DNA of 64,000 nucleotides from Acidimicrobiia bacterium (lineage in GTDB: Bacteria > Actinomycetota > Acidimicrobiia > Spongiisociales > UBA11373). The notes beneath the pieces were generated by a model. The model ran no database searches and had not been told where the DNA came from. It saw nothing but the letters and a program-made list of their open reading frames with translations. The stretch covers positions 765,608 to 829,607 of the forward strand of contig CP129495.1 in assembly GCA_030584185.1 (NCBI GenBank), written 5' to 3'. The position numbers were made by a program, and so were the translations under genes. Within the stretch, counting starts at the first letter, position 1. Every line of letters starts with the position of its first letter. This document shows, piece by piece, positions 618 to 6,526 of this stretch.

Positions 618-1802
618 CTAGTCAGGGGGTGGTGCCGGCGGCGGGGGCGGCTCGAGAGGCGGCGTCGTCGGCATCGCCAGACGCCTGCCGACGACGATTC
701 CACCGGTGAAGGCGACCACCAGGCCCATGAGAACAGCCAGGGTGAGCACCAGCGCACGGTTGGAGCTCGACTCCTCGGCGTCGGCTGCATAGGGACCATC
801 ACCGGGAGCCACATCCGCCAGGGTGGTCGTCTTCTCCTCGGGTCCGCCGGCGGCGGTGGTCACGGCCTGTGCCTGAGTCGTGGTCGAAGCGAGCGGCTCG
901 GCGGCAACGGGCGGGATGGTGGCTGCCCACCACATCGGGTACTCCCATCGGAAGTCGCCGAAAGGAGCCGCCAGCAGATCGACTGGTGCACCCCCACCGA
1001 CCGGCACGATCCGGATCAGGGCGGTCTCGTCGGCGATCGCCTCATAGACGATTCTGGACCCGTCAGGCGAGAATCGCGGGGCGAAATCGTTGCTTCCGGT
1101 CTCGAACGGTGTCTGACCGGAGCCGTCCGGGTTCATCAGGTACATGGTGGCGATCGACTCCTCCCGGGAGGAGCGAAACACGATGCGGCTGCCATCGGGT
1201 GCCCAGGAGGGATCCGAGCCGTTCTCGGCCAGCAGGGTCACCGATCCATCGACAGACGAGACCAGGCTCACCCGTGTCAGGGTTCCAGTCGGATCACGGT
1301 GCTCCACGACGATGCTGGCACCGTCGGGAGAAACATCGGGGTACAACGCAGTTCCCTCCAACTCGGCCAGGAGGCGCGGCTCTCCCCCGAAACGGGACAC
1401 TGCGAAGAGCTCAGAGCCCGAGGTGTAGACGATCTCCATGCCATCGGGTGTCCAGGTCGGGCTGTACACCGCCCCCTCGACCACGACCCTGGGGTTGCCC
1501 CCGTCGACGTCGATGAGGGTCAACTGACGCGTATAGCCCTCGCCGTACCGGATGAAGGCGATGGCGGTTCCATCAGGTGAGATCTCGGGGTCGGGGTATC
1601 GCCCTGCCCCACCGGTCAACACCCGACGGTCGGTCCCGTCGGGGCGCATCAGTTGGACCTCGTACTGCTCGGCCTCGAAATGGTCGTAGCCGAGCACGAT
1701 CCACTCCAAGTCGAGGACGGGGGGTCCCTCCTGGCCGGCGACAGGCGGGGTCGCCGCAACCAGGATGGCCGCAACCAACAGCACCGCTCGGATGGGCGTC
1801 AT
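618..1802 (-). CDS. TolB-like beta-propeller (PD40/WD40-like) secreted or membrane-anchored protein
   Basis: The 394-residue protein starts with a Sec signal peptide ending near VAGQ. It then has repeated SPDG and APDG blades typical of WD40-like PD40 repeats (for example YPDPEISPDGTAIAFIR, YPDVSPDGASIVV, SWAPDGSRIVF, RFSPDGSRIVY). Near residues 345-372 is one membrane helix, followed by a short Pro-rich tail. The propeller should sit outside the cell, held by the C-terminal helix. The start has a plausible AAGGA ribosome site six bases upstream. Such propellers usually bind proteins or glycans. No enzymatic residue is recognisable and the role is unknown. Confidence 0.75.
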   Translation of the reverse strand: MTPIRAVLLVAAILVAATPPVAGQEGPPVLDLEWIVLGYDHFEAEQYEVQLMRPDGTDRRVLTGGAGRYPDPEISPDGTAIAFIRYGEGYTRQLTLIDVDGGNPRVVVEGAVYSPTWTPDGMEIVYTSGSELFAVSRFGGEPRLLAELEGTALYPDVSPDGASIVVEHRDPTGTLTRVSLVSSVDGSVTLLAENGSDPSWAPDGSRIVFRSSREESIATMYLMNPDGSGQTPFETGSNDFAPRFSPDGSRIVYEAIADETALIRIVPVGGGAPVDLLAAPFGDFRWEYPMWWAATIPPVAAEPLASTTTQAQAVTTAAGGPEEKTTTLADVAPGDGPYAADAEESSSNRALVLTLAVLMGLVVAFTGGIVVGRRLAMPTTPPLEPPPPPAPPPD

Positions 1803-1895: not shown

Positions 1896-2657
1896 ATGAC
1901 CGTTGCCATCGCACCCGAAGTCTCGAGACGCCTCCGCCGCACCAACCTGATGCTGGGAGTGCTCCATCTGGTCCAGGGGATCGCCATCCTCCTGCTGGCC
2001 AACGGATTCGCCCTACCCGTGACCGGATCCTTTCTCGAGGGACCGCCCGGCTCGGGACCGGGCACGGTTCGGACCCTATTCGAGGTGTCGATGGCGGGCG
2101 GCGTCGCCGCGTTCCTGTTCGTCTCGGCCGCAGCCCACTTCCTGATCGCCTCACCCTGGTACTTCGATCGCTACCAGGAAGGTCTGGCTTCCGGCCACAA
2201 CCACGCCCGCTGGGTGGAGTACTCGATCAGCGCCTCGATCATGCTGGTGCTGATCGCCCTTCTCACCGGGATCTACGACGTGGCCGCCCTCACCGCGATC
2301 GCCGCCGCCAACGCGGCCATGATCTTCTTCGGGTGGGTCCAGGAGAGGTACGAGTCCCCCGGCGGGAGCCTGGTCCCGTTCTGGCTGGGGTCGCTGATCG
2401 GTGCCATTCCGTGGGTGGCGATCGGCATCTACCTGATCACCCCGGGGAGCGATGCCTCGCCACCCGGTTTCGTCTACGGCATCTACATCTCACTGTTCCT
2501 CTTCTTCAACTCGTTCGCCATCAACATGTGGCTGCAGTACCGCAGGATCGGTGGCTGGTCCGACTACCTCCGCGGCGAGCGCGCCTACGCCACGCTCAGC
2601 CTGGTGGCGAAGTCGGCCCTCGCCTGGCAGGTGTTCGCCGGCACGCTGGCCGGCTGA
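1896..2657 (+). CDS. Heliorhodopsin
   Basis: This 253-residue protein has seven hydrophobic segments and matches the heliorhodopsin family, whose members bind retinal and are oriented with the N-terminus inside the cell, inverted relative to type I rhodopsins. The retinal-binding lysine is K239 in LVAKSALAWQVFAG of helix 7. The counterion glutamate is E108 in ARWVEYSISAS of helix 3. H24 and H81 align with the His23 and His80 discussed for heliorhodopsin 48C12. Other family signatures are ASPPGFVYGIYISLF and FNSFAINMWLQY. ATG 1896 is preferred over the longer frame because the protein begins just before helix 1 and a TAGCCT hexamer (1883-1888) lies 7 nt upstream, as in many genes here. No carotenoid oxygenase is nearby, so retinal would be made elsewhere or taken up. 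Confidence 0.93.
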   Translation: MTVAIAPEVSRRLRRTNLMLGVLHLVQGIAILLLANGFALPVTGSFLEGPPGSGPGTVRTLFEVSMAGGVAAFLFVSAAAHFLIASPWYFDRYQEGLASGHNHARWVEYSISASIMLVLIALLTGIYDVAALTAIAAANAAMIFFGWVQERYESPGGSLVPFWLGSLIGAIPWVAIGIYLITPGSDASPPGFVYGIYISLFLFFNSFAINMWLQYRRIGGWSDYLRGERAYATLSLVAKSALAWQVFAGTLAG

Positions 2658-2747: not shown

Positions 2748-3557
2748 GTGAAGCGAACCATTGCCTTCTTGGCGACGACCCTGCTCGCCCTGGCCGCATT
2801 CGTCCCGGCAGCGCCAGCCGAAGAGGGCCGCTTCACCCTCGCTCCGGTCAATGGCTACGAACCCCTGGTGCGCCTGTCGCCCGGGGATGCGGGAGACGAC
2901 GTCGCCGCCCTGCAGAAGGCCATGACCGAGGCCGGTTTCTATCACCACGCCATCGACGGCGAGTACGGCCGTTCAACGGCTTCGGCGGTGATCGCATTCC
3001 ACAAGTACCTGGACCTGGAGCGCAGCGACGTGTTCAACGCCCTCGACTGGATCCGCCTCTCCGGGCTCCCCGATCCCGGTCTGCCCGAACGGACAGACGA
3101 ACCCGACCGCATCGAGATCGACCTGGGTCGGCAGTTGCTGTTCCTGTTTCGAGATGGGGTCCTCCACCAGGTGATCCCGGTGTCCAGCGGGGGCGGGTAC
3201 ACCTACCGCAGCGCCCGCACCGGGCGGGCGGTGACCGCCTCAACGCCCGAGGGCGACTTCCGGCTCAAGTGGCATCAGCGCACCTGGGTGTGTGACCCGA
3301 CGACCGGATGGTGTGTGTACAAGTACTGGGCCTTCACCGACTACTACGGAATCCACGGATATAGGAGCGTTCCCACCTACCCGGCGTCGCACGGATGCGT
3401 GCGGGTGGAGACCTGGGATGCCGATTGGCTCGAGTCGCAACTGTTCGTCGGGATGCCCGTCCACATCTGGCGGGTTCCACCCGAGGCCGACCCTGTGCCC
3501 GAGTCCCCACCGGACCCCGAGACGGTGGCGGAACTGTTCGGCACCGGGCCCGGTTAG
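2748..3557 (+). CDS. L,D-transpeptidase (YkuD) with N-terminal peptidoglycan-binding domain
   Basis: The 269-residue exported enzyme should form or modify 3-3 peptidoglycan cross-links. The order is a signal peptide (residues 1-24), a PG_binding_1 domain (about 38-90, with VAALQKAMTEAGFY and IDGEYGRSTASAV), and a YkuD catalytic domain (about 120-235). The catalytic motif HGYRSVPTYPASHGCVRV is complete, with H215 and nucleophile C217. GTG 2748 is chosen because a GGAAGGAGG ribosome site lies just upstream and the signal peptide begins there. It follows the heliorhodopsin by 90 bp and may or may not be co-transcribed with it. Confidence 0.92.
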   Translation: MKRTIAFLATTLLALAAFVPAAPAEEGRFTLAPVNGYEPLVRLSPGDAGDDVAALQKAMTEAGFYHHAIDGEYGRSTASAVIAFHKYLDLERSDVFNALDWIRLSGLPDPGLPERTDEPDRIEIDLGRQLLFLFRDGVLHQVIPVSSGGGYTYRSARTGRAVTASTPEGDFRLKWHQRTWVCDPTTGWCVYKYWAFTDYYGIHGYRSVPTYPASHGCVRVETWDADWLESQLFVGMPVHIWRVPPEADPVPESPPDPETVAELFGTGPG

Positions 3558-3582: not shown

Positions 3583-5292
3583 TTGCGCCGCACCATCTTG
3601 CTCGTCTGCGTGCCCCTGTTGGCCGCCTCCTGTGGGGGCGGTGCCGGATCCACGACCCTGCCCTCGGGACCGCCGGCAACAGTGCCCGCCGGCCAGACCA
3701 CGACCACCCTGGACCCAAGGCCCTGCCAGGGCACGACGGTGATCGCTCCGGAAGGAGGCAGCAGCACCGAGCCCGTGGTCGAACGGCTCCCAGCGGGCAA
3801 TCCCCACGCCGCAGCCGTCGCCGCCTCACAGGCGATGTTCGACTGCGCCACCGACGTCGTCGTGGTGGGCACCGCCTCCCTCGACCTGGTGGCGATGGCG
3901 GCCACCCTGGCCGTCGCCCTGCAGGCGCCACTCCTCTTCGGCGACGAGGGGATGACGAGCCTGCTCGCCTATGAGCTCGACCGGCTGGCGCCTCAACGCC
4001 TCTGGCTGATCGGTGACTCCGCTGCCGAAGCGCCGGAGTGGACCGAGGTGACCCGTGTCGAAGGCGACATCGACACCATCGCCGCCGAGGTGGCCCGTCT
4101 CAGCGGGGCCGACGAGAAGATCTTCCTTCCCCCCGAAGGCGGAACGGCCACGGTCGCCGTCGCAGTCGAGGCCATGGTCACCGGCAAGTACCTCACTTCG
4201 CATACCACCGACGGCACGACCCAGGCGACTCCCACCACCGGGGACGACGTGGTCGCCGGGGCCGGCGAGTCGGGGATGCTGTGGTTGGTCGACGTCGAGG
4301 AACCCGAGGCGGCCCTGGTGGCGGCGGCCGGGGCGCTCACCTCGGGCGGTTTCATGGCACTGGTGAACGGTGACGATCTGCGCGCCGACACCGCGGTGAG
4401 CAGAGACCTGATGCCCATCGCCGACCTGGTGAGGGCGATCCAGATCGTCGGCGCCAATCCGGACGCCGGATGGCAGGCGCAGGTGCTGCTCAGGGGCGAC
4501 CAGTTGCCCGGCGGCGGGTTCCTGATGTTCCCCGGTCGCCGTCTCATCGCCCTGTACGGCAACCCGGCGACGACCTCGCTCGGCGTACTCGGAGAGCAGG
4601 GACCGGAGGCCGGGCTGGATCGCATCGACACCCTCGCCGTCGGCTTCGACGCCGACGGGGCGCAGATCCTCCCCACGTTCGAGATCATCGCCACCGTGGC
4701 CGCAGGCAACCCCGGAAACGACGGCGACTACTCCAACGAAGTGCCGGTCGACCTGCTCCGCGCCTGGATCGAGGTCGCCGCCGCCGAGGGCGCCTACGTC
4801 CTGCTCGACCTGCAACCGGGCCGGGCGCGATTCATCGACCAGGCGGTTCTCTACGAGGAGCTCCTGTTGTACCCCCACGTGGGGCTGGCCCTGGATCCGG
4901 AGTGGAAGCTGGGTCCCGATCAGCTGCCGTTGCAGCAGATCGGCGGAGTGGGCGCCGAGGAGGTCAACGAGGTGGTCGACTGGCTGGCCGACCTGGTGCG
5001 GGAGAACGCCCTCCCCCAGAAGGTGCTGCTGCTGCACCAGTTCCGCGACGACATGCTGCGCGACCGGGACCTCATCCACCATCCGAAGGAGCTCGCCCTC
5101 GTGATCCAGATGGACGGGTTCGGTACCTATCCGGAGAAGCTGACCACCTGGAACAGAACCACCGCCGGTTGGGAGGAATCCGACTTCCTCTTCGGATGGA
5201 AGAGCTTCTTCGACGAGGACGTGCCCGGGCCGATGGCCCCTGAAGTGATTCTCGACCTCGAGCCGACCGTGGTCTACGTCTCCTTCCAGTGA
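3583..5292 (+). CDS. Lipoprotein with a cell-wall-binding-repeat-2-like segment
   Basis: About 569 residues. A TTG start at 3583, five bases after GGAGG, gives a clean lipoprotein signal with lipobox LLAASC. The open frame extends further upstream but only through sequence antisense or out of frame to the preceding gene. Around residues 77-150 is a segment like PF04122 (cell wall binding repeat 2): alternating Val/Ala strands, then LAVALQAPLLFGDEG and LDRLAPQRLWLIGDS. The C-terminal half (about residues 370-569) contains LLRAWIEVAAAEGAYVLLDLQ and VLLLHQFRDDML, which look like an alpha/beta barrel-type fold. I do not recognise a catalytic function. A surface role is likely. Confidence 0.72.
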   Translation: MRRTILLVCVPLLAASCGGGAGSTTLPSGPPATVPAGQTTTTLDPRPCQGTTVIAPEGGSSTEPVVERLPAGNPHAAAVAASQAMFDCATDVVVVGTASLDLVAMAATLAVALQAPLLFGDEGMTSLLAYELDRLAPQRLWLIGDSAAEAPEWTEVTRVEGDIDTIAAEVARLSGADEKIFLPPEGGTATVAVAVEAMVTGKYLTSHTTDGTTQATPTTGDDVVAGAGESGMLWLVDVEEPEAALVAAAGALTSGGFMALVNGDDLRADTAVSRDLMPIADLVRAIQIVGANPDAGWQAQVLLRGDQLPGGGFLMFPGRRLIALYGNPATTSLGVLGEQGPEAGLDRIDTLAVGFDADGAQILPTFEIIATVAAGNPGNDGDYSNEVPVDLLRAWIEVAAAEGAYVLLDLQPGRARFIDQAVLYEELLLYPHVGLALDPEWKLGPDQLPLQQIGGVGAEEVNEVVDWLADLVRENALPQKVLLLHQFRDDMLRDRDLIHHPKELALVIQMDGFGTYPEKLTTWNRTTAGWEESDFLFGWKSFFDEDVPGPMAPEVILDLEPTVVYVSFQ

Positions 5293-5317: not shown

Positions 5318-6526
5318 ATGAACCCTTCCATCTGGAGCCTCGAGCCCGATCTCGTCTTCCTCAACCACGGGTCCTTCGGCGCCTGCCCCGACCCGGTGCT
5401 CGAGTTCCAGGCGGCGCTGCGGGCCCGGATGGAACGACAGCCGGTCCAGTTCCTGACCCGTGATCTCGAGGGTCTGATCGACGATGCCCGCCGGTCGCTG
5501 GGCGAGTTCATCGGTGGCGACCCCGAAGGGCTGGCACCGGTGTCGAATGCGACCGAGGCGGTGAACGCCGTCGTCGGGTCGCTCGACCTCCACCCCGGCG
5601 ACGAGATCGTGGTGACCGATCACGGCTACAACGCCTGCGCCAACGTGGTGTCGCGCGCCGCCGAGCGATCCGGGGCCACGGTGCGCACGGTCTCCCTCCC
5701 CTTCTCCGGCATCGACCCGGACCTGGTGTTTCGACGGGTCGTCGATGCGGTCGGAGACCACACGGTGCTGGTCCTCGTCGACCACGTCACCAGCCCGACC
5801 GCACTGGTCCTCCCCGTCGAGCGGATCGTCGCCGAGCTGGAGGGACGCGGGGTTCCGGTGCTGGTGGACGGCGCCCATGCGCCCGGGATGCTCGAACTCG
5901 ATGTAGACGCCCTGGGCTGCTCCTGGTACGCCGGCAACTGCCACAAGTGGATGTGTGCCCCCAAGGGCGCAGGTTTCCTCTACGCCCGGGCCGATCGCCG
6001 CCACCAGCTGGTGCCCGCCGTCTTGAGCCACGGGTACAACTCGCCGCGCACCGACCGCAGCCGCTACCACCTGCAGTTCGACTGGACCGGCACCGACGAC
6101 CCCACTGCATTCCTGTGCGTTCCGGAGGCCATCCGCCAGGTGGGAGCGCTCCATGAGGATGGCTGGCCGGGGCTGCGCGCCGCCGGCCGGGCACTGGCGC
6201 TGGAGGGGCGGCGCCTGGTGGCGGAGGCCGTCGAGGCCGACGACCTGCCCCCCGAGGCGATGATCGGGTCGATGGCGACCCTTCCGGTGGACGCTCTGGT
6301 CGCACCCGCATCCCACACCGGACGATCCGATCCACTCAACGTCGCCCTCCTGGAGGAGGACCGCATCGAGGTGCCCGTAGTCTCCTGGCCGCGACCGCCG
6401 CACCGCATGCTCCGCATCTCGGCCGCCCCGTACAACACGGAGGCCGACATGCAGCGTCTCGCCGATGCTCTCAGGATGCGCGGCGTGAGGGCGTCGGGCG
6501 CGCCCGGCGCTCGGCCCGGTCGGTGA
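5318..6526 (+). CDS. PLP-dependent aminotransferase class V (isopenicillin N epimerase-like)
   Basis: The 402-residue cytosolic enzyme belongs to the class V aminotransferase / cysteine desulfurase superfamily. It starts with LNHGSFGACPDPVLEFQ, carries the cofactor-binding SNATEAVNAVVGSL, the DGAHAPGMLELDV aspartate motif, and the PLP lysine K210 in GNCHKWMCAPKGAGFLY. That pattern fits the CefD/isopenicillin N epimerase-like branch rather than NifS, since no desulfurase cysteine loop is visible. The true substrate is unknown. A TAGCCT hexamer at 5302-5307 precedes the ATG by 10 nt. The last 56 bases overlap the convergent permease gene tail to tail. Confidence 0.85.
   Translation: MNPSIWSLEPDLVFLNHGSFGACPDPVLEFQAALRARMERQPVQFLTRDLEGLIDDARRSLGEFIGGDPEGLAPVSNATEAVNAVVGSLDLHPGDEIVVTDHGYNACANVVSRAAERSGATVRTVSLPFSGIDPDLVFRRVVDAVGDHTVLVLVDHVTSPTALVLPVERIVAELEGRGVPVLVDGAHAPGMLELDVDALGCSWYAGNCHKWMCAPKGAGFLYARADRRHQLVPAVLSHGYNSPRTDRSRYHLQFDWTGTDDPTAFLCVPEAIRQVGALHEDGWPGLRAAGRALALEGRRLVAEAVEADDLPPEAMIGSMATLPVDALVAPASHTGRSDPLNVALLEEDRIEVPVVSWPRPPHRMLRISAAPYNTEADMQRLADALRMRGVRASGAPGARPGR

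Follow-up and report, generated by a model that had tools for sequence, protein, structure and literature searches.

Two members of the heliorhodopsin family with solved structures serve as the closest points of comparison for the gene described here. These are 48C12 (PDB 6su3, 6su4, 6uh3 and 9ljj) and TaHeR from a Thermoplasmatales archaeon (6is6 and 7u55). Heliorhodopsins without ion transport have been documented, and the stranded loop between helices A and B is regarded as unique to the family (PMC9385722). TaHeR comes from a host that does not synthesise retinal, and a membrane opening near the retinal ring has been proposed as the entry for outside retinal (PMC9385722). Use of heliorhodopsin by organisms without the pathway, together with rapid binding of retinal by the protein, has been described in Saccharibacteria (PMC9296517), and a dependence on outside retinal has been described for freshwater actinobacteria carrying a heliorhodopsin (PMC12422013). 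Some family members act on a partner encoded in the same operon. For AbHeR the partner is glutamine synthetase (PMC9529153); for OcHeR it is the OmrDE transporter (PMC11109279).

Heliorhodopsins of the UBA5794 group have also been published, with photolyase and regulators among their neighbours (PMC12008989). Retinal supply is not discussed in that paper, and the word "retinal" is absent from its main text. UBA5794 is probably the same order as the set of 119 genomes used in this study. We place it there in part because paired squalene-synthase-like genes are confined to heliorhodopsin-free members of the set (17 of 73, versus none of the 46 heliorhodopsin genomes), which matches the report of such genes only in the sponge group (PMC12008989).

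The heliorhodopsin gene studied here lies in a window of 64,000 nucleotides of the contig CP129495.1 from an Acidimicrobiia bacterium. The host genome consists of this one contig of 2.21 Mb and is 96.5% complete. Its heliorhodopsin belongs to the same family as TaHeR, with which it shares 44% identity; the host of TaHeR is an archaeon. The neighbours of the gene differ from those published for UBA5794.

Identification of the heliorhodopsin gene

The gene occupies positions 1896–2657 on the plus strand and encodes a protein of 253 amino acids. The boundaries of the reading frame are exact: the ATG codon is at 1896 and the stop codon ends at 2657. The protein matches the Pfam family PF18761 with an E-value of 4.7e-96 over profile positions 1–242 of 242, and its score of 321 bits is above the curated cut-off of 26.7. 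The NCBIfam equivalog NF038020 is matched with 314.9 bits at a cut-off of 100. PF18761 is the sole family found in the Pfam scan, which gave no match to the type-1 microbial rhodopsin profile PF01036. The nearest solved structures are those of 48C12 (E ~3e-81), whose homology to the protein extends over the full length; aligned by structure, the two are about 52% identical. The AlphaFold2 model, built from 22 aligned heliorhodopsins, has a mean pLDDT of 92.3. Besides the helices it contains strands at residues 39–45 and 58–65, which occupy the place of the A–B loop, as in 48C12. When the model was used as a Foldseek query, 48C12 (6su3) was the top match with a TM-score of 0.93, and type-1 rhodopsins followed far behind.

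The initial annotation had recognised, from the letters of the DNA, a heliorhodopsin whose retinal site is complete, naming K239 as the Schiff-base lysine, E108 as the counterion and histidines at the places equivalent to 23 and 80. Alignment with 48C12 and with 120 heliorhodopsins bears this out. K239 (codon 2610–2612, plus strand) falls on K241 of 48C12 and E108 (codon 2217–2219, plus strand) on E107, the helix-3 glutamate counterion. The two histidines are H24 and H81, aligned with H23 and H80. S235 corresponds to S237 and forms the helix-7 SxxxK motif together with the retinal lysine. The lysine, the counterion glutamate and the helix-7 serine are invariant across the 120 sequences, and the histidines are kept in 116 and 118 of them. 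Every retinal-site column is retained. Relative to 48C12 the sequence shows no apparent functional difference; at position 113 the protein has alanine in place of Ser112 of 48C12, a variant present in 22 of the 120 heliorhodopsins. Compared with its nearest relatives, the gene shows dN values of 0.23–0.28 and dS values of 0.59–0.85. The excess of dS over dN implies that the gene is under purifying selection. The product of 1896–2657 is a genuine, intact heliorhodopsin.

A viral origin of the gene was also considered and rejected, as viral contigs gave a single weak and partial heliorhodopsin match.

Genes adjoining the heliorhodopsin gene

The heliorhodopsin gene opens a run of four co-directional genes. 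It is followed after 90 nt by a gene (2748–3557, plus strand) for an L,D-transpeptidase, as had been noted initially. The product combines a YkuD domain (PF03734, E 1.9e-15) with a peptidoglycan-binding domain PG_binding_1 (PF01471, E 7.5e-07) and has a signal-like stretch at its N-terminus. The third gene (3583–5292, plus strand) lies 25 nt further downstream and encodes a lipoprotein-like protein of 569 amino acids with a lipobox-like N-terminus (LAASC), for which neither Pfam nor NCBIfam gave a match. The protein is conserved: of 59 genomes of the order, 32 have a homologue, and within its own family these are mostly paired with a YkuD transpeptidase. In one relative two tandem L,D-transpeptidase copies precede the homologue (G003:C31; L193:4832-6378). 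The run ends, after another 25 nt, with a gene for a class-V aminotransferase-fold protein (5318–6526, plus strand; PF00266, E 4.3e-27). Divergent from the heliorhodopsin gene lies a gene (618–1802, minus strand) for a TolB-like PD40 propeller protein (PF07676, E 3.4e-20) with a C-terminal stretch resembling a membrane anchor. No homologue of the propeller protein was found in the compared relative loci.

Retinal supply

Genome-wide searches for retinal-forming genes were carried out with profiles and proteins. The initial annotation had reported no carotenoid gene in the window. As far as Blh, phytoene synthase and RPE65-family oxygenase are concerned this is true, not just of the window but of the whole genome. 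Profile searches of the 2.21 Mb gave no match to Blh (PF15461), to phytoene synthase (PF00494; control searches with this profile did match), to RPE65-family oxygenases (PF03055) or to type-1 rhodopsins (PF01036), although a distant or novel retinal-forming enzyme would slip past such profiles. If a retinal-auxotrophic rhodopsin host is defined by a rhodopsin without Blh or a carotenoid pathway, the genome belongs to this class, as PF15461, PF00494 and PF03055 are all unmatched.

The same state prevails in the order. A heliorhodopsin above the cut-off is carried by 46 of the 119 genomes, and Blh was found by profile search in none of the 119. As the control genomes gave no Blh match either, the search was run on 50 other heliorhodopsin genomes from many phyla and detected Blh in three of them, namely in Tessaracoccus antarcticus (E 2.8e-69), a freshwater actinobacterium (3.3e-37) and a Nanopelagicales fragment (5.3e-7). 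This indicates that the search works in actinobacteria and speaks against Blh having been missed through a weak search. It also shows that a heliorhodopsin without Blh is the common state among the 50 genomes of the control set. A phytoene-synthase-like gene of any sort is present in 7 of the 46 heliorhodopsin genomes of the order. The initial annotation had treated the source of retinal as an open question. The puzzle is real, but it is not peculiar to this host: heliorhodopsin hosts without retinal synthesis have been published (PMC9385722, PMC9296517, PMC12422013), and papers already account for them by uptake of outside retinal. A heliorhodopsin without Blh is known ground. The combination of heliorhodopsin and absent retinal pathway found here is one already known for the family.

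RPE65-family oxygenases were considered as a retinal source and set aside. They are missing in the host and occur in six of the 119 relatives (G015, G045, G095, G096, G104 and G115; for example, L188:2636-4258), five of which have a heliorhodopsin. The one examined, the protein of G096, is closest to a carotenoid 9,10-dioxygenase and its gene is set among thiolase-like genes; for these two reasons it has no clear role as a retinal maker. The five genomes with both an RPE65-family oxygenase and a heliorhodopsin lack phytoene synthase.

Proposed function

We consider it likely that the heliorhodopsin is a light sensor and not an ion pump, and that it is loaded with retinal from other organisms. 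The data that bear on this proposal are the family, the fold, the retinal-site columns, the missing recognised retinal genes and the purifying selection. By analogy with characterised family members, the apoprotein would pick up all-trans-retinal released by other organisms, and the precedent for this step is the proposed entry of outside retinal into heliorhodopsins through the membrane opening (PMC9385722, PMC9296517). The retinal would form a Schiff base with K239, and E108 would act as its counterion. The topology is expected to be inverted, with the N-terminus inside, and the photocycle to be slow, sensory and non-pumping, as in the homologues (PMC6951262, PMC9385722), with the proton retained inside the protein. 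A change at the cytoplasmic face may then be passed on to a partner protein. The transport of protons by some viral heliorhodopsins (PMC9448325) counts against the non-pump reading. The locus provides a clean, single-contig case of a heliorhodopsin under selection in an order with Blh in none of 119 genomes, and it lends support to the idea that many hosts of such proteins rely on retinal made by other organisms.

Alternative explanations

The initial annotation had hinted at a conserved pairing of the heliorhodopsin with the wall enzyme. If the two genes formed one operon and a functional pair, a light-sensing heliorhodopsin could tune wall cross-linking. The genes are on the same strand, no terminator-like site was found in the gap between them, and regulation of a same-operon protein is known for heliorhodopsins (PMC9529153, PMC11109279). 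Comparison of the neighbourhoods among relatives gives a different picture. Genes were called around the 46 heliorhodopsin loci of the order, and the downstream gene was readable in 42. The transpeptidase is downstream of the heliorhodopsin in three of these 42, in the host genome, G007 and G012, which retain the adjacency across two genera of one family; across the order as a whole the context is not conserved, the outcome named in the initial annotation as a refutation. Moreover, the transpeptidase adjoins the homologue of the 569-amino-acid protein without a heliorhodopsin in G003, G005, G008 and G013, and lies about 1.4 kb from it in G002 and G010. The same upstream block and transpeptidase pair recur in G008, which is 98% complete; the genome search gave no heliorhodopsin match anywhere in G008 or G013. 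In the heliorhodopsin tree, G003 is nested in the clade that the three paired proteins form (support 100/99), yet its heliorhodopsin gene is located elsewhere. With its signal-like N-terminus the transpeptidase is expected to work on the outer side of the membrane, while the heliorhodopsin partners known so far, glutamine synthetase among them, are presumably cytoplasmic. A functional pair is very unlikely. The ten published groups of heliorhodopsin neighbours do not include an L,D-transpeptidase. The pairing is best read as an inherited position within one small lineage; the wall enzyme, most probably no more than a neighbour, is a poor clue to heliorhodopsin function.

Another explanation concerns the source of retinal, which the lineage could make with an unrecognised enzyme or take up through a dedicated importer. 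The absence of Blh from all 119 genomes, set against the heliorhodopsins in 46 and type-1 rhodopsins without Blh in five, is the reason to propose such a route. A functional rhodopsin has been reported from a bacterium that lacks any known retinal gene (in a reference cited by PMC11561045 and PMC12422013). Without a phytoene synthase, however, the host is not expected to produce a carotenoid precursor itself, and passive uptake of outside retinal accounts for the data with nothing new needed. We regard this explanation as quite improbable for the lineage; a non-Blh enzyme or dedicated importer serving the heliorhodopsin-bearing members of the order in general appears unlikely as well, if slightly less so. 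The missing retinal source would also fit a heliorhodopsin that is a relic or functions independently of retinal. This is extremely improbable given that the lysine, the counterion and the other family-invariant residues are kept and that dN is well below dS. A light sensor loaded with outside retinal remains the preferred reading.

Recurrent neighbours and further observations in the order

Genes for a photolyase, a protein with HTH and B12-binding domains, an SDR-DUF2867 protein or a DUF427 protein are found near 16 of the 46 heliorhodopsin loci of the order. HTH and B12-binding domains together characterise light regulators of the LitR/CarH type. The same four neighbour types are near none of 25 control loci of the order, a contrast that is indicative only, because the controls are smaller (0.21 Mb versus 0.61 Mb for the heliorhodopsin loci) and non-random, having been fetched for other genes. 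Genome-wide, photolyase is present in 35 of 46 heliorhodopsin carriers versus 12 of 73 other genomes (Fisher p 1e-10, uncorrected for relatedness and habitat). The recurring links to photolyase and regulators agree with published heliorhodopsin neighbours (PMC11109279, PMC8612252, PMC12008989). The same photolyase profile has no match in the host genome, which carries one B12-type regulator about 0.5 Mb from the heliorhodopsin gene.

The five genomes of the order that carry type-1 rhodopsins without Blh are G001, G040, G086, G096 and G105 (loci L032–L035 for the first four). In G090 (G090:C17:156953-157643) the heliorhodopsin match is in two pieces on adjacent stretches, possibly owing to a frameshift or an assembly error.
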